Made by a program: the position numbers and the translations under genes. A stretch of 48,676 bases of DNA from a virus: the IMG/VR virus record IMGVR_UViG_3300037674_000223, positions 1 through 48,676 of that record. One strand, 5' to 3'. The notes beneath the pieces were generated by a model. That model had not been told where the DNA came from. It worked only from the letters and a program-made list of their open reading frames with translations, and did no database searches. The first letter of the stretch is position 1; every line of letters begins with the position of its first letter. Positions 21,651-48,327 of the stretch are shown here, one piece after another.

Positions 21651-22982
21651 ATGAATAAAGAAGACTTTGATATACATGAAAAACAAGATTTAGAAGGCGT
21701 TGAAAAAAAGTGGAAGAAATTCCAAGAAGAAAACGATATATCTAAAGTAGAAGATGTTGATCTAAAACATCTTAAAGAAGAAATAGAAAAAGACCTTGGA
21801 TACGTGTCTAAAATGACCGTACAAGAGTATACATTATTCCAAAAGTGGCAAGAAGTACATAAGAAATATCCTACAGTAGAAACAACTACTCTTTATGGTA
21901 CAGAAAAATTACTAGAAAACCCTACACAAAAACAACAAATAGAATCAGTTAGAAAGAATATCTGGATTCCAGAATCACCTGAAGACTATGATAAATTAGA
22001 ACCTGTATTAGAATATACAGACGATACTACAAAAAGATTTAACGGTAAAGCAGTAAGAACTCAACAACTATCAGAAAACTGGAATACATTAAGAACGTTT
22101 TTGTCTACTATGAAAAACAATAGTAATATTGGTAGACAACTATTCTTTAATGTAAATGATAACAGATCAGGTAAACATCTAGGTGTTATTTGTATATCTG
22201 GTGACTTTATGGATTTAACTCCAAGAGATAGTGCTATTGGTTGGGATAGACATAGTAAAACATTTGGTGGTATGATTAATCATACTGCTATTGGTTCCTC
22301 TATTGTACCAACACAACCTTTAGGTTATAGTTTTACTGGTGGTAAATTATTAGCATATCTATGTTTATCAGATGATGTACAAAGAATATGGCAAGAAAAG
22401 TATGGCGATAAGTTAGTTGGTGTTACCACAACATCTTTATATGGTAAGGCAAAAGCGAATACTTTAAGTCAATATGATGGTTTAAAATATTGGAAACGTA
22501 TGGGTTTCACTATGGGTTCCGTTTCATATGAACCACAATTAGAAACTAAAAATTTAATTAAACAATGGTTAAAGAAAAATCATACTAAAAAATACTTTGA
22601 ATGGTATGTGGCAACAAGAGCCAATGGCCAACCATTAAAAAGAGATCACAAAAATAGGTCATATATGTTTACTTATTCAAGACTTGGTATACCTAAAGAA
22701 TATATAAAAACAGATCATGCTAGAGGTATATACTTTGCAAGATTATATGAGAATACATATGAGTATTTAAGAGGCGAAGTAAAAGATGATGGTTTAAAGA
22801 AACGATTCGATTCGTCTACCGAAGCATTAGTTAAAGTGTGGAAAGAAAAACATGCCTCTAAAAGAATAAAGAGTTTAAAACAAACAAATAGATATTCTAA
22901 AGAATCACATTTTTATGATGATTTGATATACTTAAATTGGGAAGAGTGTAAAGGAAAGTACTTAAATCAAGTAGGAAGATAG
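21651..22982 (+). CDS. DruA-like (DUF4338) protein 1
   Basis: A 443-residue protein whose middle (about 180-290) resembles the DUF4338/DruA domain: LGVICISGDFMDLTPRDSAIGW, an invariant-looking SSIVPTQPLGY, FTGGKLLAYLCLSDDVQRIW, EKYGDKLVGVTTTSLYG and QYDGLKYWKRMGF. The N-terminal 110 residues are charged and helical; the C terminus is basic. DruA is the hallmark subunit of the Druantia anti-phage system, and related proteins occur near mobile elements; the biochemical activity is not settled. A shorter paralogue lies at 39056. Both have leaderless-type promoters. Confidence 0.65.
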   Translation: MNKEDFDIHEKQDLEGVEKKWKKFQEENDISKVEDVDLKHLKEEIEKDLGYVSKMTVQEYTLFQKWQEVHKKYPTVETTTLYGTEKLLENPTQKQQIESVRKNIWIPESPEDYDKLEPVLEYTDDTTKRFNGKAVRTQQLSENWNTLRTFLSTMKNNSNIGRQLFFNVNDNRSGKHLGVICISGDFMDLTPRDSAIGWDRHSKTFGGMINHTAIGSSIVPTQPLGYSFTGGKLLAYLCLSDDVQRIWQEKYGDKLVGVTTTSLYGKAKANTLSQYDGLKYWKRMGFTMGSVSYEPQLETKNLIKQWLKKNHTKKYFEWYVATRANGQPLKRDHKNRSYMFTYSRLGIPKEYIKTDHARGIYFARLYENTYEYLRGEVKDDGLKKRFDSSTEALVKVWKEKHASKRIKSLKQTNRYSKESHFYDDLIYLNWEECKGKYLNQVGR

Positions 22983-26803: not shown

Positions 26804-27004
26804 ATGATAAAAGTAGATGTAAGAAATGGTAATGTAGAACAGGCTTTAAGAGTCTTAAAAAGAAAAAATTTAAAAGATAATTTCCTTAAAAATTATAAGG
26901 AAAGAATGTATTATGAGAAACCTTCTGAAAAAAAGAGACGAAAAAAGAAAGAAGGAATTGCCAATTGGAAGAGGAAGAAACGTTTACAAGAGAGATTTTT
27001 ATAA
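26804..27004 (+). CDS. rpsU: Ribosomal protein bS21
   Basis: A 66-residue, highly basic homologue of small-subunit protein bS21, which sits near the mRNA exit channel and affects initiation and Shine-Dalgarno use. The order is standard: IKVDVRNGNVEQALRVLKRK, then RMYYEKPSEKKRRKKKE and a basic RKKRLQERFL tail (compare bacterial REFYEKPTxxRKRK). Phage-encoded bS21 is known from marine phages including pelagiphages. A stem-loop precedes it and a structured region follows. Confidence 0.9.
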   Translation: MIKVDVRNGNVEQALRVLKRKNLKDNFLKNYKERMYYEKPSEKKRRKKKEGIANWKRKKRLQERFL

Positions 27005-27324: not shown

Positions 27325-27771
27325 ATGACCAATTCAAAAGCAATTCAATTCTTTAATAGTTTAAGACCAGTAACCGTAGGGTTTGACAGTATGTTTGACA
27401 ACTTTGAACATATGTTAGATACAGATTTTACGAGAATGGGAAACTATCCACCATACAATATCGTTAAAACAGGTAAGTTTACCTATGATATTGAATTAGC
27501 ATTAGCAGGATACTCTAAAAATGATGTATCTGTAGACTATGCTGACAATGTTCTAACAATCAAGTCTAATAAAGACGAGCAGACTAAAGAGGTTGAGGAC
27601 AATGATGGTATACTTCACAAAGGTATAGCTAAAAGATATTTTAGTAAGTCATTTACTGTAGCAGAAGACTGCGAAGTAAAGGGTGCTGAACTAAAAGATG
27701 GTCTTTTAAAGGTATCTTTAGAGAAGATTGTTCCAGACTCAAAGAAGCCTAGAACTATAAAAATCAAGTAA
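27325..27771 (+). CDS. hsp20: Small heat shock protein Hsp20
   Basis: A 148-residue alpha-crystallin-type chaperone. The core runs from NYPPYNIVKTGKFTYDIELALAGYSKNDVSV to GLLKVSLEKIVP, including the loop before AKRYFSKSFTVAEDCEVKGAELKDG. The C-terminal PRTIKIK carries a hydrophobic I-x-I tail for oligomer contacts. Hsp20 is a signature accessory gene of marine T4-like phages, thought to assist capsid folding or stability, which suits its overlapping late promoter. Confidence 0.95.
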   Translation: MTNSKAIQFFNSLRPVTVGFDSMFDNFEHMLDTDFTRMGNYPPYNIVKTGKFTYDIELALAGYSKNDVSVDYADNVLTIKSNKDEQTKEVEDNDGILHKGIAKRYFSKSFTVAEDCEVKGAELKDGLLKVSLEKIVPDSKKPRTIKIK

Positions 27772-27899: not shown

Positions 27900-28868
27900 A
27901 TGTTAATAGAAACAAAAAATATAGCTCAAAAAGAATTTGAGCGTCCAATTCCCGACTTTTCAAATGTCGGAGTTTACGTAAAAAAAAATCCAACCAAATT
28001 AAAATTATCAAAAATTCATATTGATGATAAAGAAGGCAACACCGCTCGTATGCATGGTACTAGCGAAAGTGATATTGAGAGTTTAAAACACTCTTTATCT
28101 AGTGGTTGGAATACAAGTGAATATCTACCATGTGTTTATAAAAATCCAGATAAGTCTAGTGACTATTCATATATTTTAGCATATGGTTATAATAGATGTA
28201 TAGCTTTAGAAGAATTATATGGTGATGATTTTGAAATGTGGTTTGATATAGTTGATTGTTCAGATAGTGAATTATTAGATATAAGAACCATGGAAAATGA
28301 AGGTCTACCAAAAGTTACCAATAAAGAAATAGACATTGTTAAAACTATAATGGTAAAAATAGATAGACATGGTTTTCCTAAAGATAGTGATAAGATTAGA
28401 GACCATTTAAATAAAATTTGTCCTAATAGAAGACTTGAATCTATAGACAATATTATTAGACAAGTGGAAGAAAGAGCTAGTATAAACAATGCTGTCTATG
28501 AATGGAATCCATCAAAAGCAAAAAGATGGTCTAAAAATGATTCGTCTATTAAATATAATTATGATGGTAAGGAAACCAATGGTGTACATACATTTATTTG
28601 TAAACAAGGTGGTGCTTATAGAACTTACCATAGAATGATAACCAAGTACCTTGAGACCGGTAACCCTTGTCAAGTTATATTTCATGTATCAAGACCTACA
28701 CCCAAATCTCCAATAAGTGAAAAAAGAAAAAGAACTTTAGAGGATTGGAATGAAGGAATTAATAGATTAAAACAATTAGGTTGTAAAACCAATTGGATGA
28801 AAGCGGCTGGTTTCTTTCCACAAGTAGTTGGTAAAGACAATTGGTCAAAATTAGTACAAGTTAAATAA
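27900..28868 (+). CDS. ParB-like domain protein
   Basis: A 322-residue protein. The N-terminal 110 residues (VKKNPTKLKLSKIHIDDKEG, then SDIESLKHSLSSGW, and YILAYGYNRCIALEELYGDD) have the ParB-N order, with a GxxR-type YGYNR motif in place of GERR. A helical middle part follows (TNKEIDIVKTIMVKIDRHG) that could be helix-turn-helix. The rest is unrecognised. It is flanked by the 51-base repeat and has both promoter types. DNA binding or CTP binding is possible; function unknown. Confidence 0.55.
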   Translation: MLIETKNIAQKEFERPIPDFSNVGVYVKKNPTKLKLSKIHIDDKEGNTARMHGTSESDIESLKHSLSSGWNTSEYLPCVYKNPDKSSDYSYILAYGYNRCIALEELYGDDFEMWFDIVDCSDSELLDIRTMENEGLPKVTNKEIDIVKTIMVKIDRHGFPKDSDKIRDHLNKICPNRRLESIDNIIRQVEERASINNAVYEWNPSKAKRWSKNDSSIKYNYDGKETNGVHTFICKQGGAYRTYHRMITKYLETGNPCQVIFHVSRPTPKSPISEKRKRTLEDWNEGINRLKQLGCKTNWMKAAGFFPQVVGKDNWSKLVQVK

Positions 28869-28929: not shown

Positions 28930-29454
28930 ATGGAAATAAAGAATATAAAATTTAAAACACGTGAAGGTGATATATCCGAATCAGGTGCTTGTAATTTTTC
29001 CAATGGTAAATGGGTTGATAGAACTACTGACTATTACTTTAAAGATAAGAAAGTAATTATATTCAGTTTACCAGGAGCTTTTACACCAACTTGTACATCA
29101 CAACAACTTCCAGGTTATGACAACCTGTATACGAAATTCAAAGAACATGGCATAGATGAGATTTATTGTATATCAGTAAATGATTCTTTTGTTATGAATG
29201 CATGGAAAACCAACGAACAAATCAAAAACATTAAAATGATACCAGATGGCAATGGCGAACTAACAAAGAGTTTAGATATGTTAGTTACCAAAGAGGCCAT
29301 TGGTTTTGGTTACCGTTCATGGAGATATGCAGCTATTGTACACAATGGTGATATAATAAAAATGTTCGTTGAACCTGGTAAAGAATTTAATGATCCATCG
29401 GATCCTTATGGAGTATCTTCACCAGAAAATGTCTTGAAATATTTGGAGGCTTGA
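28930..29454 (+). CDS. Peroxiredoxin (Prx5-type)
   Basis: A thioredoxin-fold peroxidase of 174 residues. The active-site motif is SLPGAFTPTCTSQQLPGY, with peroxidatic Cys55 and the family PxxxTxxC spacing (Pro48, Thr52). GIDEIYCISVNDSFVMNAW and a C-terminal ENVLKYLEA helix also match Prx5. A candidate resolving cysteine could be Cys21 or Cys78-region (IYCISV); unproved. It likely detoxifies peroxides during infection. The start lies 3 bases after repeat copy 2. Confidence 0.9.
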   Translation: MEIKNIKFKTREGDISESGACNFSNGKWVDRTTDYYFKDKKVIIFSLPGAFTPTCTSQQLPGYDNLYTKFKEHGIDEIYCISVNDSFVMNAWKTNEQIKNIKMIPDGNGELTKSLDMLVTKEAIGFGYRSWRYAAIVHNGDIIKMFVEPGKEFNDPSDPYGVSSPENVLKYLEA

Positions 29455-30275: not shown

Positions 30276-31220
30276 ATGACAGATTTTTTGTGGGTAGAAC
30301 AATACCGACCCAAAACAATAGATGAATGTATCTTATCAGAAGATACAAAGAATACCTTTTTAGAATTTCTATCTAAAAAAGAACTACCAAACATGTTATT
30401 AACTGGTACTGCCGGTACTGGTAAGACAACTGTTGCTCGTGCTTTATGTGAAGAATTAAACCTTGATTATATTGTAATCAATGGATCAGATGAAGGCCGT
30501 CAAATAGATACGTTAAGACATAAGATTAAAAACTTTGCAACAACTGTATCTTTCAATACAGAATCAAAACATAAAGTAGTCATAATTGACGAGGCAGATT
30601 ATATGAATGCCGAATCGGTACAGCCTGCTTTAAGAAATTTCATAGAAAGTTTTTATAATAACTGTAGATTTATATTTACTTGTAACTATAAGAACAAAAT
30701 CATACCAGCTTTACATAGTCGTTGTACTGTTATTGACTTCAAAGTTTCTAATGGTCAAAGAGGGAAAACTGCTGTTGCTTTTATGAAACGTTTGGAAAGT
30801 ATCTTAAAAGAACAAGAAATTGAGTATGATAAAAAAATATTAGCTCAGTTAATTGAAAAACATTATCCAGATTTTAGAAGAACTATCAACGAACTTCAAA
30901 GATATTCTGTACGTGGTAAGATTGACAGTGGTATTCTATTCAATTTAAAAGAAACAGACTATAAGAATCTTATGGGTTACCTGAAGAAAAAAGAGTTTGA
31001 TAGTATGAGGAAGTGGGTAATCCAACATTTAGATATGGACGCTACTGATCTATTCAGAGGTGTCTATGATGTTCTATATGAAAGTTTAGAACCTAAATCC
31101 GTACCTCAAGCGATATTAATAATTGCTGGCTACCAATACAAGGCAGCCTTTGTGGCTGACCACGAAATTAATGTAATAGCCTGCCTAACAGAGATTATGG
31201 CAAATTGTAAATTCAAGTGA
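30276..31220 (+). CDS. gp44: Clamp loader large subunit gp44
   Basis: AAA+ clamp loader ATPase, 314 residues (T4: 319). Walker A is GTAGTGKT (44-51), Walker B VVIIDEAD (Asp105, Glu106), sensor 1 FTCNY, and the SRC arginine-finger motif LHSRC (148-150). It loads gp45 with gp62. A TAAGGAG ribosome site lies upstream. Confidence 0.97.
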   Translation: MTDFLWVEQYRPKTIDECILSEDTKNTFLEFLSKKELPNMLLTGTAGTGKTTVARALCEELNLDYIVINGSDEGRQIDTLRHKIKNFATTVSFNTESKHKVVIIDEADYMNAESVQPALRNFIESFYNNCRFIFTCNYKNKIIPALHSRCTVIDFKVSNGQRGKTAVAFMKRLESILKEQEIEYDKKILAQLIEKHYPDFRRTINELQRYSVRGKIDSGILFNLKETDYKNLMGYLKKKEFDSMRKWVIQHLDMDATDLFRGVYDVLYESLEPKSVPQAILIIAGYQYKAAFVADHEINVIACLTEIMANCKFK

Positions 31221-31296: not shown

Positions 31297-31431
31297 ATGG
31301 CAAAGAGAACACTATGGAGAGTGTTGATAGTAAAAATGAGAATGTGGTATGCAGATGTAAGAGGTCATCATGGACATAAATGGAATTATGAGCCAAGTGA
31401 GAGTTACATGGGCAGAAAACGAAAGAGATAA
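31297..31431 (+). CDS. 44-residue basic peptide
   Basis: A short ORF (ATG 31297, TAA 31429) encoding a basic, Trp-containing peptide (MAKRTLWRVLIVKMRMWY, then GHHGHKWNY, ending MGRKRKR). Its stop overlaps the bL12 ATG (TAATG), indicating coupled translation. AAAGGAATT lies upstream at loose spacing. The 76 bases before it hold only a 16-codon ORF (31220-31270). Function not recognised; nucleic-acid or ribosome binding is possible from charge alone. Confidence 0.5.
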   Translation: MAKRTLWRVLIVKMRMWYADVRGHHGHKWNYEPSESYMGRKRKR

Positions 31432-31793
31432 TGGCAGACATTAACAAATTAGTAAATGAAATAGGTAAATTAACTATGCAAGAAGCTGCTGATATGGCCA
31501 AAATAATGGAAGATCAGTGGGGAATACAAGCAAGTAATTTACAAGCGGCTGCTCCAACACCTGTTGCAGTTTTAGAAGAAAAGAATACAGCTACAGTTAT
31601 ATTAAAAAGTTTTGGTGAAAAGAAAATGGGTGTATTAAAAGTTGTTAAAGAAGTATTAGAATTAGGTTTAATGGAAGCAAAAAATTTTGTTGAAGATTTA
31701 CCTAAAACGGTTGAAGAAAACCTTGAAACAGCACATGCTGAAGAATTAAAGAAGAAGTTAGAAGACGCTGGCGGAACAGTAGAACTTAAATAA
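31431..31793 (+). CDS. rplL: Ribosomal protein bL12 (L7/L12)
   Basis: A 120-residue homologue of the ribosomal stalk protein. The short helical N-terminal dimerisation part (INKLVNEIGKLTMQEAADMAK) and an Ala/Pro hinge (LQAAAPTPVAV) are followed by the typical factor-binding domain: TVILKSFGEKKMGVLKVVKE, LGLMEAKNFVEDLPKTV, then AEELKKKLEDAGGTVELK. Bacterial L12 has VILKAAG..K..VIK.VR..TGLGLKEAK and the same ending. The stalk recruits EF-Tu, EF-G and initiation factors. Placement between gp44 and gp62 ties it to early replication expression. Confidence 0.93.
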   Translation: MADINKLVNEIGKLTMQEAADMAKIMEDQWGIQASNLQAAAPTPVAVLEEKNTATVILKSFGEKKMGVLKVVKEVLELGLMEAKNFVEDLPKTVEENLETAHAEELKKKLEDAGGTVELK

Positions 31794-31820: not shown

Positions 31821-32213
31821 ATGTACGAATTAAAAGATTATTTAAAAGCTATAAACGAAACAAAAGTTAACCTTTTGAAGACCAGCGATATTGCCTGGAC
31901 TAAAAAGTACCCTCCCTACATCATTAATAAGTGTTTATCCATGTTTTGGGATACACTTCCACATGCCAATGAAATGAATGGTTATCACTTCTTGGACAAA
32001 GACATACAATTTCAATTTTTACTAAATAGTATCAGACCAAAGAAACGTTTTGGTGGGAAGTGGATCAAACAAATTAAGTTGGTTGACTTGGAATATGTAA
32101 AAGAGTATTATGGATATAGTAATGATAAAGCACGTCAAGCACTACAAGTACTCTCAAAAGAACATATAGATAAAATTAAACAAGCCTTATACAAAGGCGG
32201 GAGAAGAAAATGA
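31821..32213 (+). CDS. gp62: Clamp loader small subunit gp62
   Basis: A 130-residue partner of gp44, shorter than T4 gp62 (187) but of the size and pattern of marine T4-like phages: KKYPPYIINKCLSMF, HANEMN, DKDIQFQFLLNSIRPKKRFG, and VKEYYGYSNDKARQALQVLS. It follows bL12 by 27 bases and overlaps regA (ATGA), so translation with RegA is coupled. No strong ribosome site. Confidence 0.88.
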   Translation: MYELKDYLKAINETKVNLLKTSDIAWTKKYPPYIINKCLSMFWDTLPHANEMNGYHFLDKDIQFQFLLNSIRPKKRFGGKWIKQIKLVDLEYVKEYYGYSNDKARQALQVLSKEHIDKIKQALYKGGRRK

Positions 32214-32680
32214 ATGATGAAGTAAAGTGGTCACAAGATCAGATGTTAGAGGTAACTCTAAATCAACCAGATGATTTCTTAAAAGTTAGAGAGACACTTA
32301 CCAGAATAGGCGTAGCAAGTAGAAAAGATAAGACCCTTTTTCAATCTTGCCACATACTACACAAACAAGGAAAGTATTACATAGTACATTTTAAAGAGCT
32401 TTTTGCTTTAGATGGAAAGAAGGCTACTCTAATTAATAATGATATACAACGTAGAAATACAATAGCAGTATTACTACAAGACTGGAATTTAATTAATATA
32501 TTAGACAAAGATACAGCAAAAGAAAACAGAGCACCATTATCACAGATTAAAGTATTACCATTTAAAGAGAAAAAAGAGTGGATATTATCCGCTAAATATA
32601 ACATAGGTAAGAAAATAGTTAAGGAAGAGAAGCCTCTTCCGAAGGAAGAGAAACCTGATAATGCAGATACCAAAGTTTAG
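32210..32680 (+). CDS. regA: Translational repressor RegA
   Basis: mRNA-binding repressor of early phage messages. The core matches T4 closely: LEVTLNQPDDFLKVRETLTRIGVA, DKTLFQSCHILHKQGKYYIVHFKELF (T4: QSCHILQKKGLYYIVHFKEM), RRNTIAVLLQDWNLI and KKEWILSAKYNIGKK. It has 156 residues against 122 because of a 10-residue N-terminal and a Lys/Glu/Pro-rich C-terminal addition. In T4 it also represses gp45 and gp44-62. Confidence 0.95.
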   Translation: MNDEVKWSQDQMLEVTLNQPDDFLKVRETLTRIGVASRKDKTLFQSCHILHKQGKYYIVHFKELFALDGKKATLINNDIQRRNTIAVLLQDWNLINILDKDTAKENRAPLSQIKVLPFKEKKEWILSAKYNIGKKIVKEEKPLPKEEKPDNADTKV

Positions 32681-34127
32681 AGATTATATAACAGAGCAAA
32701 ACCCTGGTCGTAAAGATAAACCGATCACGATTGCTATACTTACTATAAATGATTCAGAGGATCCTCAAAAGGATTCAACTGTTGAACTTATAGAAAAGGC
32801 GTGTAAAAAACAAAAAACTAAATGCGTTATTGTTAATACAACATCTACTATAATCACAGCAAAAGACGAAGATAAGAACACCCTTACTGTCTATAATTAC
32901 GATGGTAAGAATGGTGAACATACCTTTACAGGTAAAGATACCGTTGTTATAACACGAGGTGGTGCAGTGGAGAACGAAGCTGGACTGTCTTTAATCTCTG
33001 CCTTTCAAAACTCACAATCATTTATGTTAAACACAAGACAAGCTATGATGACTTGTGATAACAAATTAACGTCAGCTTTACTATTTGAAAAGTTTGGTAT
33101 AGCTACACCAAAAACAGCATTTATATCTAACGAGAATAATATAAGAACTGGAATAGATATGATTGGTGGTAAGTTTCCACTTATCTTAAAGACATTAACA
33201 GGTACACAAGGTATCGGAGTAATTAAAATTGAAAGTTATGAAGGTCTTGTTGCAACTGTACAAGCAATGTGGAAATTAGAATCTGAACTTTTAATACAAG
33301 AATTTATGCCTACAAAGTTTGATGTAAGAACTTTTTGTTTAGATAACAAAGTTATTGCAAGTACAAAAAGAGTACATAGCTCATATGACTTTAGATCAAA
33401 TACTCATAGAGGTGCCGAGGCACACCCTTATACTTTAAATGATGAAGAACATGAATTAATTTTAAAAGCTTCAAGAGCTTCAAAGGCATATATGGTAGGA
33501 GTTGACCATATAATACACAATAAAAAACCATACATTTTAGAAATCAATGGTAGTCCAGGATCAGGTGCTGATTATCAAGGTTACCAATACAAAGATTATT
33601 ATTCTGATCCAGAACCATCTGGTAGAATAGACGGTGAAAAAATGATGGAATATCTTGTAGATTATATTCAAGATAGAAGTCATTGGGATAGACAATCACT
33701 TATAGAATGTGGTTGGTTAGAAACTGTTGACGTTGCCGATGTAGATAAAGTTAGAGCTAAGTTTGATAGTGGTAACGGATCAAAAGCTTGTGCTTTACAT
33801 GCCGATAAAATTATATCAGATAAGAAAACTGTTAAATGGAAATATAATGGTAAAACTTATGAGAAACCTAAATTTGGTCAAAGTAAAATTTTTAGAGCAA
33901 ATGCTACAAACGAACCTTCTGAAATTAGACCTACAATATTATTAGATTTAACCTTTAATGGTTTTACCTATAAAGATGTAGAGGTAGGATTAGATAGTAG
34001 ACCAAGATCAGGATCAGATTTATTAATTAATAGAGATTTAATGAGACAAATGAATGTTAGTGTTAACCCTAATAGGACGTTTGTATTAAGTAAAAGACTA
34101 AAACCGGTTGACAAAGAACAGAAGTAA
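32661..34127 (+). CDS. RimK-like ATP-grasp ligase fused to RimB-like protease domain
   Basis: A 488-residue fusion. Residues about 20-330 are an ATP-grasp ligase like RimK, the ribosomal protein S6 glutamate ligase: FPLILKTLTGTQGIGV (nucleotide-binding loop), ELLIQEFMPTKFDVRTF, VDHIIHNKKPYILEINGSPG. Residues about 360-480 are a retropepsin-like domain of the RimB/zinc-protease family: AKFDSGNGSKACALHA (Asp369), RPTILLDLTFNG, and LDSRPRSGSDLLINRDLM. The N terminus PKFRDYITE|Q resembles a capsid-targeting peptide with a gp21-type site. It overlaps regA by 20 bases. Confidence 0.8.
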   Translation: MQIPKFRDYITEQNPGRKDKPITIAILTINDSEDPQKDSTVELIEKACKKQKTKCVIVNTTSTIITAKDEDKNTLTVYNYDGKNGEHTFTGKDTVVITRGGAVENEAGLSLISAFQNSQSFMLNTRQAMMTCDNKLTSALLFEKFGIATPKTAFISNENNIRTGIDMIGGKFPLILKTLTGTQGIGVIKIESYEGLVATVQAMWKLESELLIQEFMPTKFDVRTFCLDNKVIASTKRVHSSYDFRSNTHRGAEAHPYTLNDEEHELILKASRASKAYMVGVDHIIHNKKPYILEINGSPGSGADYQGYQYKDYYSDPEPSGRIDGEKMMEYLVDYIQDRSHWDRQSLIECGWLETVDVADVDKVRAKFDSGNGSKACALHADKIISDKKTVKWKYNGKTYEKPKFGQSKIFRANATNEPSEIRPTILLDLTFNGFTYKDVEVGLDSRPRSGSDLLINRDLMRQMNVSVNPNRTFVLSKRLKPVDKEQK

Positions 34128-34182: not shown

Positions 34183-34488
34183 ATGCAAGAAGTGAAAATA
34201 TTAAGACTATCTACAGGCGAAGATGTAATTGCCAAGGTAGGTGAGAACGACCAAGGCGTGAGTTTAAAAAATCCATTCGTGATTATACCTCAACGAAAAG
34301 GTCCAGGACAACCATTACAATTAATGATGTCTCTGTACAATGCCTTTGGTAAAAAGGAAACTGTCACTATATCAAAAGATAAAATAGTTTTTATGACAGA
34401 ACCTAAAGATGAGATAAGAACATCTTACGAACAAAACACAAGCTCAATTATAACAAAGAATCAAAAGTTAATAACAGAAGCAACGTGA
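34183..34488 (+). CDS. Sm-like small protein (paralogue of 16503-16958)
   Basis: A 101-residue protein with the pattern VKILRLSTGEDVIAKVGEN, SLKNPFVIIPQ, QLMMSLYNAFGKKETVTISKDKIVFM, repeating the order of the protein after uvsW. The NG/TGxDVxAxV strand pair resembles the Sm1 motif. The Sm fold is inference. It is first gene of the ferredoxin-polymerase-folE operon, ending GTGA with ferredoxin. Confidence 0.6.
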   Translation: MQEVKILRLSTGEDVIAKVGENDQGVSLKNPFVIIPQRKGPGQPLQLMMSLYNAFGKKETVTISKDKIVFMTEPKDEIRTSYEQNTSSIITKNQKLITEAT

Positions 34489-34817
34489 TAACAGTAAACT
34501 TTATTAGGACAAACAATGAGAAAGTCCAAGTAAAGGTGCCTGCTGGTTTCACTATAATGGAAGCAGCTAAAGAGGCATGTTTACCGGAAATTCCTGCTGA
34601 CTGCCGTGGTTGTTGTGCTTGTGCTACTTGTCACGTACATGTAAACAATGCCTGGATTGCCAAATTAGATCCCATAGATTATAATAGCAGTGAACAAGAA
34701 TTATTAGAATATGAAAAAGGATATAAAAAAGGTATTAGCAGATTGAGTTGTCAAATATCATTAACAAAAGAACTTGATGGCATAACTTTACATTTACTTG
34801 ATGATAAACTTTTATAA
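34485..34817 (+). CDS. 2Fe-2S ferredoxin (adrenodoxin type)
   Basis: A 110-residue electron carrier. The cluster cysteines Cys40, Cys46, Cys49 and Cys89 are in CRGCCACATC (CX5CX2C) and RLSCQI, the order of adrenodoxin/isc-type ferredoxins. The GTG start at 34485 overlaps the previous stop; the 3' end overlaps the polymerase. Extra cysteines at 43 and 44 are unusual. Possible partners in this window are the radical SAM and 2OG enzymes and the SufE-like protein (inference). Confidence 0.92.
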   Translation: MITVNFIRTNNEKVQVKVPAGFTIMEAAKEACLPEIPADCRGCCACATCHVHVNNAWIAKLDPIDYNSSEQELLEYEKGYKKGISRLSCQISLTKELDGITLHLLDDKLL

Positions 34818-37287
34818 ATCAGTTATAGAACACAAAGGTAAACTTCTAGTTAGAGGTATACATGATGGCAAAGACTATAAAGAAAAGATAGACTTTGGTC
34901 CTACTCTATATTCTATCACACAAAAAAATACAAAATTTAAAACTTTAGATAATCGCAATCTTAATCCTATTAAATTCAAAAACATTAATGACGCAAGAAG
35001 ATTTAGACGAGACGTTGCAACCGATAATTCTCCTATTTACGGTTTAGAACGTTTTCATTATCAATATATTAATGACCAATTTCCTAAAAATATAAAATGG
35101 GATAAAAAGTTTATTAAGATATTCACAATGGATATTGAGACTACGGTCACTGATGGTTTTCCAGATGTAGAAAATCCTATTGAAGAAATTATTTGTATCA
35201 CTGTTAAAAATCAAACTAATAAACAGGTTATAACATGGGGAACTGGTGAATATAAAACAGATAGACTAGATGTTACCTATGTAAAATGTAAAACTGAACA
35301 ACATTTAATAATGGAGTTTATGAAATTTTGGTTAAAGAATCATCCAGATGTTATTACAGGATGGAATACCAAGTTTTTTGATTTACCATATTTAATGAAT
35401 AGGATTAAATTAATTGCAGGCGAAAAGGTTGCAACTAGAATGTCGCCATGGAATTTAATAGAAAAAAATGAAATCATAGTAAGAGGTAGACCTCAAACAA
35501 CATATACTTTAAAGGGTATTGTGATGTTAGATTATCTTGATTGTTATAGATGGTTTATACCAACAAGACAAGAAAGTTATAAACTAGATTTTATTGGTGA
35601 GTTAGAACTAGGTAAAAAGAAACATGTAAATCCTTTTGAAACATTTAAAGATTTTTATGAAAAAGATTTCCAAAAGTTTATTGATTATAACATACAAGAC
35701 GTTGAAATTGTTGACGCCTTGGAAGATAAACTTGGTTTAATTGAACTAGCATTAACTGTTGCATATGAATCTAAAGTAAACTATGATGATATATTTTCAC
35801 AAGTAAGAGTGTGGGATACTTTAATTGCAAATCATTTATTGGCAAAAAATATATGTATACCACCAAGAGAAGAACATATTAAAGATACAAAATATGAAGG
35901 CGCTTATGTAAAAGACCCTAAAGTCGGTCAGCATAAGTGGGTAGTTTCTTTTGACATTAACTCACTATATCCACATATCATTATACAATATAATATTTCG
36001 CCAGAGAAAATAATAGGACAGGATCCTTCAGGTATTTCTGTAAATAAAATGTTAAAACGGAAAATAGATTTATCTTATTTAAAAAAAGAAAATGCTTGTG
36101 TAACACCTAACGGTGCGAAGTTTAAAAATGATAGTCAAGGTTTCTTACCAGAAATGATGGAGACCATGTACAATGAACGTGTTGTTTATAAGAAACGTAT
36201 GTTAACAGCTAAAAAATTATATCAAAAGAATAAGGATCCCGAATTATTAAAAGAAATTTCTAGATGTCACAATATACAATGGGCAAGAAAGATTGCTTTA
36301 AACTCAGCTTATGGTGCAGTTGGTAACCAATACTTTAGATTTTATGATGTAAGACAAGCAAGTGCTATTACTACAACAGGTCAATTCATTATTAGATATA
36401 TTGAGGAAAAAGTAAATGATTATATGAATAAGATTTTAGAATCAGAGTATGATTATATTGTTGCGTCTGATACAGATTCAATTTATGTGACGATGGATAA
36501 GTTAGTTGAAAAGACTTGTCAAGGTAAAACAAATGAACAGATATGTAATTTTATTGATAAGGTTGTTGATAGTAGAGTAGAACCATATATTAAAAAATGT
36601 TTTAATGAACTATCTGAATATTCAAATGCATTTAAAAATTGTATGGTAATGAAACGAGAAATAATTGCCAACAAAGGAATATGGGTTGCAAAGAAAAGAT
36701 ATATGTTAAACGTATTAGATGATGAAGGAGTAAGATTAGCTGATCCTAAATTAAAGATTATGGGTATTGAGGCAGTTAAATCATCAACACCACAAGTTTG
36801 TAGAGGTAAAATTAAAGAGGCAATTCAAATTATTATGAATAAAGATGAACCTACTTTACAAAAATTTATTGCAGACTTTAAAAAAGAATTTTTAGAAATG
36901 GCACCAGAACAAATATCCTTTCCTAGATCATGTAATAATATTGGTAAGTATAGAAACCCAGCAACTATCTTTAGTAAAGGAACACCAATACATGTAAAAG
37001 GTTCTTTAATATACAATCATAAATTAAAAGAAATGAAATTACATAAGAAATATCCTTACATAAAAGAAGGAGATAAGATAAAGTTTCTTAAATTAATACA
37101 GGCAAATCCATTTAGATTTGATGTGATTAGTTATATTACAACGTTACCATTTGAATTTGATTTAAAGAAATATATAGATTACGAAACACAATTTGAAAAA
37201 ACATTCCTTGATCCTATGAGATTTATATTACAATCTATAGGTTGGTCACAGGAAAAGAAAGCAACTTTGGAGGCATTTTTTGGATGA
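34801..37287 (+). CDS. gp43: DNA polymerase gp43 (family B)
   Basis: Replicative polymerase with proofreading, 828 residues (T4: 898). The exonuclease motifs are FTMDIETT (Asp111, Glu113), NTKFFDLPYL and YNIQDVEIV. The polymerase motifs are SFDINSLYPHIIIQYNISPE (motif A), KIALNSAYGAVGN (motif B), and ASDTDSIYV (catalytic Asp557/Asp559). KKRYML and a final LEAFFG clamp-binding-like tail follow. Starts at the ATG at 34801, just before the ferredoxin stop. Confidence 0.97.
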   Translation: MINFYKSVIEHKGKLLVRGIHDGKDYKEKIDFGPTLYSITQKNTKFKTLDNRNLNPIKFKNINDARRFRRDVATDNSPIYGLERFHYQYINDQFPKNIKWDKKFIKIFTMDIETTVTDGFPDVENPIEEIICITVKNQTNKQVITWGTGEYKTDRLDVTYVKCKTEQHLIMEFMKFWLKNHPDVITGWNTKFFDLPYLMNRIKLIAGEKVATRMSPWNLIEKNEIIVRGRPQTTYTLKGIVMLDYLDCYRWFIPTRQESYKLDFIGELELGKKKHVNPFETFKDFYEKDFQKFIDYNIQDVEIVDALEDKLGLIELALTVAYESKVNYDDIFSQVRVWDTLIANHLLAKNICIPPREEHIKDTKYEGAYVKDPKVGQHKWVVSFDINSLYPHIIIQYNISPEKIIGQDPSGISVNKMLKRKIDLSYLKKENACVTPNGAKFKNDSQGFLPEMMETMYNERVVYKKRMLTAKKLYQKNKDPELLKEISRCHNIQWARKIALNSAYGAVGNQYFRFYDVRQASAITTTGQFIIRYIEEKVNDYMNKILESEYDYIVASDTDSIYVTMDKLVEKTCQGKTNEQICNFIDKVVDSRVEPYIKKCFNELSEYSNAFKNCMVMKREIIANKGIWVAKKRYMLNVLDDEGVRLADPKLKIMGIEAVKSSTPQVCRGKIKEAIQIIMNKDEPTLQKFIADFKKEFLEMAPEQISFPRSCNNIGKYRNPATIFSKGTPIHVKGSLIYNHKLKEMKLHKKYPYIKEGDKIKFLKLIQANPFRFDVISYITTLPFEFDLKKYIDYETQFEKTFLDPMRFILQSIGWSQEKKATLEAFFG

Positions 37288-37871
37288 AAAATGGAATAAG
37301 TAAACGATACCAGGTGGTGAGAGACGTTGAAGTTGAAGAAGCTTTTACTAAAATTATTAAATGGATAGGTGAAGACCCTACAAGAGAAGGACTTAAAGCT
37401 ACACCAAAAAGATTAGTGAATGCATATAAAGAATATTTTAAAGGTTACCACGAAGACCCAAAACAAATTTTAGAAAAAGCATTAGCCGATGTACAAGGTT
37501 ATGACGAAATGGTTATACAAAAAAACATTTCAATTCATAGTCATTGCCAACATCATATGGCTCCAATAGTTGGAGTTGTTCATGTTGCATATATTCCAAA
37601 CAAAAGAGTAGTTGGTTTAAGTAAACTTGCTAGAGTAGTAGAGGTATTTTCAAAGAGATTACAAACACAAGAAAAATTAACAATGCAAATTGCAAATACA
37701 ATTATGGATGTTTTACAACCAAAAGGTGTTGCAGTAACCATAAACGCTTCACACCAATGTATGACCATGAGAGGTATTAAAAAAGAAAATGCAACCACTG
37801 TTACAAATTATTTTCTTGGTGTTTTAAAAGATGATTTAAATTATCAAAAAAAATATTTAAAGTTTATATGA
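37284..37871 (+). CDS. folE: GTP cyclohydrolase I
   Basis: Converts GTP to dihydroneopterin triphosphate, the entry step to folate and to 7-deazaguanine bases. The zinc ligands Cys88, His91 (HCQHHMAPIVG) and Cys159 (HQCMTMRG) are all present, with DPTREGLKATPKRL at the N terminus. From the ATG at 37284 (overlapping the polymerase stop, after TTGGAGG) it has 195 residues. No queC, queD or queE is seen here, so whether it feeds folate or DNA modification is open. Confidence 0.95.
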   Translation: MKNGISKRYQVVRDVEVEEAFTKIIKWIGEDPTREGLKATPKRLVNAYKEYFKGYHEDPKQILEKALADVQGYDEMVIQKNISIHSHCQHHMAPIVGVVHVAYIPNKRVVGLSKLARVVEVFSKRLQTQEKLTMQIANTIMDVLQPKGVAVTINASHQCMTMRGIKKENATTVTNYFLGVLKDDLNYQKKYLKFI

Positions 37872-39055: not shown

Positions 39056-40159
39056 ATGAAAACTAAAAATTTAACAGGTGACCAAGCATTGCATTGTGCT
39101 GGTATATTCAATAATTACTTTGAAAAGTTTAGTCGTATAGATGAATATATGAGAGATCAAAAATTATCTCAAATAGGAAATATACCGGCTGCATTACCTG
39201 GAATGACTTTAGATAGTGATATGTTTTCTAAATTTGATATGTCGCCTAAAGATATGGAATTTGAAATATTGGAACCTGATAATGAAACATATGATACATT
39301 ATTAAATATGACTTCTTCTCATACTAATATGTCAAGTGTGCCTGGTAAAAATTTAAAGATTGCAGTAAAAGAAAAGAATACTAATCAGTGGGTAGGTTTT
39401 ATAAGATGTGGTTCTCCAGTTATAAACATGAAACCAAGAAATGAATTATTAACTCACGTACCAGAATTAGTAAGTTTTAATAAAACATCTATAATGGGAT
39501 TTGTAATAGTACCAACTCAACCTTTTGGTTTTAATTATCTAGGTGGTAAACTATTGGCTGCCATATGTTGTAGTCATACAATAAGAGAAAAATTAAATAA
39601 CAAATATGGTATGAACTTATCATTGTTTGAAACTACAAGTCTATATGGTAATAGTAAATCATCAAGCCAATATGATGGTATGAAACCATATTTAAGATAC
39701 AAAGGATTAACTGATAGTGATTTTATACCTTTGATACATGGTAAACCTTTCCATGATCTTGCAACGTTTGTTGATAGTGCTGTAGGTAAACTTGTTAAAG
39801 ATGACGCCTCTAGTAGAAAGTTAAAACTAACAACGGCCATTATTGGTTTAATAAAGAGAAGTTTAAACAGAAGTGATTTAGAAAGATTTAATACAACTAT
39901 AAATAATGCAAAGAAGCTAACTGAAAGAAAAAGATACTATGTTAGTGATTATGGTATTAAGAACTATCTAGATATAGTAAAAGACAACACAAAGGAAATA
40001 GTTAAAGGTGATAATTGGGATAAATTCCACCTAAATAATATAATAGATTGGTGGAAAAAGAAAGCTGAATCTCGGTATAATAAACTGAAAGAACAAAATA
40101 GATTAAGAACTGAATTAGAAATATGGACACCAGAGGCAAAAATAGATATAATAAGATAA
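39056..40159 (+). CDS. DruA-like (DUF4338) protein 2
   Basis: A 367-residue paralogue of the protein at 21651. The shared core is WVGFIRCGSPVINMKPR, GFVIVPTQPFGFNYLGGKLL, an IREKLNNKYGMNLSLFETTS element, LYGNSKSSSQYDGMKPYLRY, in the same order and spacing. N-terminal and C-terminal parts differ. The aspartate seen in the RDxxIGW segment of paralogue 1 is replaced here by RNELLTH, so the two copies may not be equivalent. Family assignment as for paralogue 1. Confidence 0.62.
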   Translation: MKTKNLTGDQALHCAGIFNNYFEKFSRIDEYMRDQKLSQIGNIPAALPGMTLDSDMFSKFDMSPKDMEFEILEPDNETYDTLLNMTSSHTNMSSVPGKNLKIAVKEKNTNQWVGFIRCGSPVINMKPRNELLTHVPELVSFNKTSIMGFVIVPTQPFGFNYLGGKLLAAICCSHTIREKLNNKYGMNLSLFETTSLYGNSKSSSQYDGMKPYLRYKGLTDSDFIPLIHGKPFHDLATFVDSAVGKLVKDDASSRKLKLTTAIIGLIKRSLNRSDLERFNTTINNAKKLTERKRYYVSDYGIKNYLDIVKDNTKEIVKGDNWDKFHLNNIIDWWKKKAESRYNKLKEQNRLRTELEIWTPEAKIDIIR

Positions 40160-47676: not shown

Positions 47677-48327
47677 ATGTATATAAAAGGTGGTATGAAA
47701 AAACTATCCAAAGCAATTGCAAAGTCAGCTAAAGAAAATATGGATGCTGAAATAAAAATTGCAGAACAAGAGGAGAAAGAAATGATGGAAGCAGAGAAGA
47801 CGCCTGTATTTGGCGACAGTCAAATGGCCGGCATGTCAATCCAGGAAAAGCTTGGTACATGGAGCCATAATTTTTCTCAATTGGATGACAAAGAAAAGTT
47901 TTACTATATGCTAGAACAAGGACGTGGCATAGTTAAACTTGATGACGATAAAAGAATAAACGGTTATAGAATATATGGTTGTGTAAGCCAAGTATGGTTA
48001 TTACCACAGCTTAAAGGTGAAAACATGGAATTTGAAGTAGACGCTGATTCTCACGAGGCAAGAGGAGCAATGTATATACTTCAATCAATTTTATCAGGTC
48101 ACCCACCAAAAGAAATTTTGGAAGTGGACGATAATCAAATTGCTGGTATAGGTTTCATAGATGTATTAACTCCAAAAAGACGAGACGGTCTTTTCGCAGT
48201 TGTTAATGCTATAAGAGACTATGCTAAAGACATGAACGAAATAATGGTAGAGCAAACTCAAGCTGAACAAGTGGTAGATGAAAAACCGTCAAAAAAATAT
48301 AAGAAGTATACAAAAGCGGGGGAGTAA
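47677..48327 (+). CDS. SufE-like sulfur acceptor protein
   Basis: SufE takes sulfur from the cysteine desulfurase SufS and raises its activity in Fe-S cluster assembly. Residues about 55-205 carry the fold: MSIQEKLGTWSHNFSQLDDKEKFYYMLE, then RIYGCVSQVWLLPQL (acceptor Cys102 in GCxSQVW), FEVDADSHEARGAMYILQSIL and FIDVLTPKRRDGLFAVVNAI (typical LTPxRRxG). The N-terminal 55 residues (coiled, charged) and the Lys-rich C-terminal tail are extra. AAGGAGATATA ribosome site. Confidence 0.85.
   Translation: MYIKGGMKKLSKAIAKSAKENMDAEIKIAEQEEKEMMEAEKTPVFGDSQMAGMSIQEKLGTWSHNFSQLDDKEKFYYMLEQGRGIVKLDDDKRINGYRIYGCVSQVWLLPQLKGENMEFEVDADSHEARGAMYILQSILSGHPPKEILEVDDNQIAGIGFIDVLTPKRRDGLFAVVNAIRDYAKDMNEIMVEQTQAEQVVDEKPSKKYKKYTKAGE

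Follow-up and report, generated by a model that had tools for sequence, protein, structure and literature searches.

A full-length ribosomal stalk protein bL12 in a probable SAR11 phage, with residues altered beside its factor-binding site

The virus record analysed here, a stretch of 48,676 bases hereafter called the window, carries a true, full-length gene for the ribosomal stalk protein bL12 which, as far as its sequence tells, belongs to an old lineage found only in phages. As a general background, bL12 forms dimers that bind uL10 via the N-terminal domain (NTD), exchange between ribosomes, and recruit GTPase translation factors via the C-terminal domain (CTD). Because the phage protein has both domains, the most economical reading is that it joins the stalk of the SAR11 host by exchange, which we regard as fairly probable. 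Phage bL12 proteins have already been published (PMC6375957; PMC7162821; PMC7029224), and the gene is thus less new than the original prediction implied; what is added here is the phage-only clade, a set of changes fixed close to the factor-binding site, the mobility of the gene, and its neighbourhood with bS21 and RimK-RimB genes.

The identity of the gene is well established. The open reading frame (ORF) has exactly the predicted extent, on the plus strand with an ATG start and 120 amino acids (Table 1), and the claim that it encodes a full bL12 with its factor-binding domain is borne out by Pfam matches to both domains and by an NCBIfam equivalog match, all above their cut-offs. The NTD is thereby predicted to bind uL10. 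An AlphaFold (AF2) model computed from 20 relatives is of modest confidence (mean pLDDT 67), and its CTD superposes on the E. coli L7/L12 CTD (1CTF) at 0.9 A with a TMt of 0.94, so that this domain does model as L12, a point on which the original prediction had staked itself. The closest solved chain is a bacterial bL12 (3.7e-24). Within IMG/VR, 16 distinct relatives were retrieved by a single-sequence search and 35 by an alignment search; the full length and both domains are intact across 20 divergent phage versions, and 14 related phage records hold one L12 copy each. A 39% match to the window protein was also seen in a human faecal contig (MT836236), and the gene is absent from every isolate in the phage collection searched.

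Table 1. Positions in the window of the bL12 gene, its domains and the surrounding genes
Feature	Coordinates	Strand	Evidence
Phage bS21 gene (66 aa)	26804..27004	+	PF01165 1.1e-13; TIGR00030 52.2 bits; both above cut-off
gp44, clamp-loader large subunit	30276..31220	+	phrog_168 1.9e-120
Conserved basic ORF (44 aa) between gp44 and L12	31297..31431	+	no Pfam or PHROG match
Phage bL12 gene (120 aa)	31431..31793	+	NCBIfam equivalog TIGR00855 99.2 bits (cut-off 84.4), residues 1-120 (120/120)
N-terminal dimerisation / uL10-binding domain (predicted), residues 4-41	31440..31553	+	Ribosomal_L12_N, PF16320 1.8e-7, 31.2 bits (cut-off 25); W30
C-terminal factor-binding domain, residues 55-120	31593..31790	+	Ribosomal_L12, PF00542 4e-25, 88.4 bits (cut-off 25.9); 1CTF fold match
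Phage-altered stretch, residues 76-86 (LELGLMEAKNF)	31656..31688	+	76, 81, 85 and 86 differ from SAR11
gp62, clamp-loader small subunit	31821..32213	+	phrog_225 1.3e-41
RegA translational repressor	32210..32680	+	PF01818 3.7e-45; phrog_242 3.9e-62
RimK-family alpha-L-glutamate ligase with probable C-terminal RimB-like protease domain (488 aa)	32661..34127	+	TIGR00768 153.4 bits (cut-off 143.4); PF08443 6.8e-38

Regarding the virus itself, its tail sheath, portal, major head protein and replicative helicase genes are T4-like. Since gp44 is closest to those of Mosig EXVC030M (72.6% identity) and HTVC008M (62.4%), two phages for which the SAR11 strain HTCC1062 is the listed host, the window stems from a T4-like pelagimyophage (Kyanoviridae) whose host is most likely SAR11. 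The L12 gene follows gp45 and gp44 and precedes gp62 and RegA, and its placement within the replication operon, among the clamp-loader genes, is confirmed by the flanking PHROG matches. While the gene does lie between gp44 and gp62, as had been proposed, it is not directly beside gp44, because the 44-aa ORF intervenes. Scanning the surroundings of the gene for promoters gave counts equal to the shuffled level, the terminator scan gave three weak stem-loops on the minus strand, and a repeat search gave nothing.

This position carries no meaning in itself and is only one of several in which L12 is found, since relatives hold other cargo there and L12 sits elsewhere in other phages: in Mosig and HTVC008M the gp44-gp62 gap is occupied by a 2OG-Fe(II) oxygenase gene instead of L12, and L12 relatives elsewhere adjoin genes for ribonucleotide reductase, PhoH, ferredoxin or SufS/SufB-like proteins, the ferredoxin and SufS/SufB labels being our own reading. 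A fixed link between L12 and the clamp loader is ruled out by these neighbours, and the occurrence of the gene in several unrelated phage neighbourhoods indicates that L12 is mobile phage cargo. In one relative (L027, 4625-7793), the phage bL12 lies between genes that we read as SufS and SufB, of iron-sulphur assembly; in the window, a SufE-like gene is found at 47677-48327.

The 44-aa ORF is joined to L12 by a one-base overlap, the last base of its TAA stop being the first of the L12 ATG, and it adjoins L12 in eight other records (L006, L007, L010, L015, L016, L025, L026 and L031), in one of which (L015) the pair is preceded by unrelated DNA. Its core motif, MWYADxRGHHGxxWNYEPSxxYMG, defines a widespread marine phage family of at least 590 IMG/VR stretches, present also in the pelagiphages HTVC021P, HTVC048P, HTVC103P and HTVC104P, which has neither a name nor an assigned function and gave no match in Pfam and PHROG searches. 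A role as an L12-specific partner is unsupported: 71 of 80 fetched copies have no L12 nearby, and many other marine contigs lack L12 after the ORF and have gp62 or other genes immediately downstream of it. Nor was a host homologue found in 99 SAR11-family genomes, in a search that had no positive control. Compared with three close strains (L007, L010 and L011), its dS reaches about 1.8-2.3 where neighbouring genes have 0.01-0.16, the protein being 86-90% identical across these same strains, and the ORF therefore looks like a swapped allele or a recombination joint.

In terms of selection, the window L12 and its relative L012 (79% identical) give a dN/dS of about 0.28 with a dS of 0.45, which supports long-term purifying selection. 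Among close strains, the L12 protein changes faster than gp44 or gp62 with small synonymous change, and the 9 nonsynonymous against 2 synonymous differences from L010 indicate that its present-day constraint is looser than that of gp44. L12 has thus been kept over long times under a constraint weaker than that of the core replication genes. That the gene would be hitchhiking cargo without a role, or encode a protein repurposed off the ribosome, might be considered given its presence in few contigs but many neighbourhoods and the looser constraint among close strains; the dN/dS of 0.28 at longer range, together with the length and both domains preserved in 20 divergent versions, makes this scarcely credible. 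As a separate observation, an ORF of 322 aa at 27900-28868, which matches nothing in Pfam or PHROG, differs from its counterparts in close strains by more nonsynonymous changes than synonymous ones (14:1, 21.5:2.5 and 22.5:3.5), unlike its neighbours.

The phylogenetic comparison with host bL12, which the original prediction had called for, was made with 20 phage, 25 SAR11, 33 other alphaproteobacterial and 9 other bL12 sequences. The SAR11 set was anchored on a genome (G224) containing an exact match to what we take to be the SAR11 16S probe sequence of Morris et al. 2002, and was widened from there to its family. The phage proteins form one clade (support 100/100) apart from the SAR11 clade (100/99), and when positions 76, 81, 85 and 86 are left out the phage clade still receives 100/99, with SAR11 again separate. 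Phage and SAR11 proteins are alike in length, domain order, W30, K65, K70 and K84, whereas their identity is at most 50% (mean 46%). A recent transfer from the SAR11 host is ruled out by the tree and by the fixed residue differences described below. As for an older source, W30 occurs in each of the 20 phage and 116 alphaproteobacterial bL12s compared, but in only one of 9 others, which suggests an old alphaproteobacterial origin, although short proteins give weak deep trees.

Residues of 20 phage bL12s were then compared with those of 50 SAR11 and 116 alphaproteobacterial ones, the numbering of the window protein being that of mature E. coli L12 in the CTD. K65, K70, G79, L80, E82 and K84 are invariant in all 20 phage proteins, and position 73 is R or K in all of them; in E. 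coli, both EF-Tu binding and translation are weakened when K65 or K70 is mutated (PMC10602876). By contrast, phage and SAR11 proteins share no residue at positions 12, 53, 61, 76, 81, 85, 86 and 101, and the host-type S12, T76, K81, D85 and L86 are missing from every phage version. K81 and D85, which are separated by a single helical turn and are altered jointly, are replaced by M/L/I and N/T, respectively, and F86 is carried instead of L86. Four of the eight fully differing positions fall in the 11-residue stretch 76-86, beside the factor-binding helices (hypergeometric 0.003, for a stretch picked after the data had been seen).

This combination of kept and altered residues bears on two alternatives to stalk exchange with a phage-specific effect. 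According to the first, the phage copy would simply top up a multi-copy stalk protein in a host-like manner, without any bias, in line with the retention of all core factor-binding residues and with the low copy number in the host, as 76 of 99 SAR11-family genomes have one rplL match and none has more; since the differences at 12, 76, 81, 85 and 86, fixed in 20/20 phage versions, would be left unexplained, we consider such a dosage effect rather unlikely. According to the second, a helix-5 face devoid of K81 and D85 would escape a host enzyme or toxin acting on L12, for instance a lysine modifier. K81 is indeed acetylated in the L7/L12 of E. coli (PMC10602876), and it is lost not only in the 20 pelagiphage proteins but also in three huge-phage-type L12s (L334, L335 and L336), in which position 81 is M or L and position 85 is T or N. 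However, 13 other phage bL12s in the tree, found partly with the K81 pattern, keep both K81 and D85, so that phage bL12s are not generally marked by loss of K81. We know of no SAR11 enzyme that modifies L12, which also counts against evasion, and this explanation appears highly improbable. For the huge-phage-type and pelagiphage proteins, the tree fits shared ancestry as well as independent change (AU p 0.51).

Coming back to stalk exchange, the following sequence of events can be proposed. The phage bL12 would be made together with the replication proteins, and its dimer, formed via the NTD, would attach to host uL10 at the latter's C-terminal helix, thereby exchanging with copies of the host bL12 on 50S stalks or joining them. 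The CTD would retain the core contacts with translation factors, such that ribosomes carrying the phage stalk would remain active; the altered helix-5 face (76/81/85/86) would meanwhile change some stalk interaction. With bS21, the phage would supply one exchangeable protein per ribosomal subunit. Exchange into host ribosomes is plausible in view of published work; that factor recruitment is biased toward phage translation, as originally proposed, and that the altered 76/81/85/86 face has a role, we only infer from the sequence. Counted in favour of exchange are the two domains, the CTD fold, the conservation of K65, K70, L80, E82 and K84, the single copy, the signature of selection, the accompanying bS21 and the detection of viral bS21 and bL12 in E. 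coli 70S fractions (PMC6375957); counted against it are the identity of at most 50% to SAR11 bL12 and the fast protein change among close strains.

A further point against it is that, in the same published work, tagged viral bL12 failed to pull down or purify ribosomes and viral bS21 left only about 5% of the translation activity in vitro (PMC6375957), from which it follows that incorporation need not aid translation. One could hence imagine that phage bL12 in the stalk slows host translation or sequesters factors for the sake of takeover, a possibility with which both the near-inactivity of the bS21-containing E. coli ribosomes and the altered surface beside the factor-binding site would agree. 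Nevertheless, phages need active ribosomes for their late proteins, and an inhibitor would not need the invariant K65, K70, L80, E82 and K84, which leaves host shut-off very unlikely.

L12 is accompanied in the window by bS21 and RimK-RimB genes. The bS21 gene occupies the same position as in HTVC008M and Mosig, and among the 16 further L12-bearing virus records that were tested, 7 have bS21; since all these records are fragments, absence means little. The third gene after L12 encodes the RimK-family ligase, with the K-B domain order, and is labelled glutathione synthetase in Mosig; its C-terminal part is probably a RimB protease, as suggested by matches to PF05618 (0.0016, below cut-off) and PDB 2pma (0.0015) and by a D-S-G motif. 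RimB is a protease that trims the glutamates added by RimK (PMC11957791). None of ten SAR11 genomes contains a RimK above cut-off. As to the substrate, bS6 would be the obvious candidate but is not supported, since the last residue is N, K or S and not glutamate in the seven bS6 sequences from SAR11 that were read. A coordinated rebuild, in which bL12 on the 50S stalk and bS21 on the 30S platform would be swapped in and combined with a RimK-RimB writer/eraser missing from the tested hosts, would yield ribosomes specific to the phage, with an altered stalk face that either binds a factor or evades a host modifier; this more elaborate scenario is decidedly unlikely.

With respect to known systems, an L12 homologue in some group A pelagimyophages was mentioned in one sentence by Zaragoza-Solas et al. 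2020 (PMC7029224). These are, like the window virus, T4-like SAR11 phages that also have bS21, and their L12 very probably belongs to the same gene family; that report gave no analysis, the clade, altered residues, mobility and neighbours coming from the present work. The viral proteins of Mizuno et al. 2019 (PMC6375957) have the bL12 CTD too, and one was recovered in E. coli 70S fractions, but they are often a domain within other proteins or devoid of the NTD (DSS3P2 orf7), whereas the window protein is full-length; a tblastn search with the latter found none of the isolates of that study. The huge-phage L7/L12 proteins (Al-Shayeb et al. 2020, PMC7162821; LR756501, L335 and L336) are full-length, with M/L at 81 and T/N at 85, and have about 30% identity to a member of the pelagiphage clade (L036).

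SAR11, the most abundant bacterial group of the ocean, ranks with its phages among the most numerous organisms on Earth. Were the phage bL12 to enter SAR11 ribosomes, this would be a clear example from nature of a virus altering ribosome composition. The altered surface beside the factor-binding site provides a defined and testable hypothesis on the role of the stalk in infection, and the presence of bS21 and RimK-RimB alongside bL12 makes phage-specialised ribosomes testable in one system.

Finally, the window contains further genes of note. Two relatives of DruA (Druantia), both assigned to phrog_19197, lie at 21651-22982 and 39056-40159 (PF14236 1e-16 and 5.6e-7, respectively), and host-like cargo includes genes for Hsp20 (27325-27771), a peroxiredoxin (28930-29454), a 2Fe-2S ferredoxin (34485-34817) and GTP cyclohydrolase I (37242-37871).
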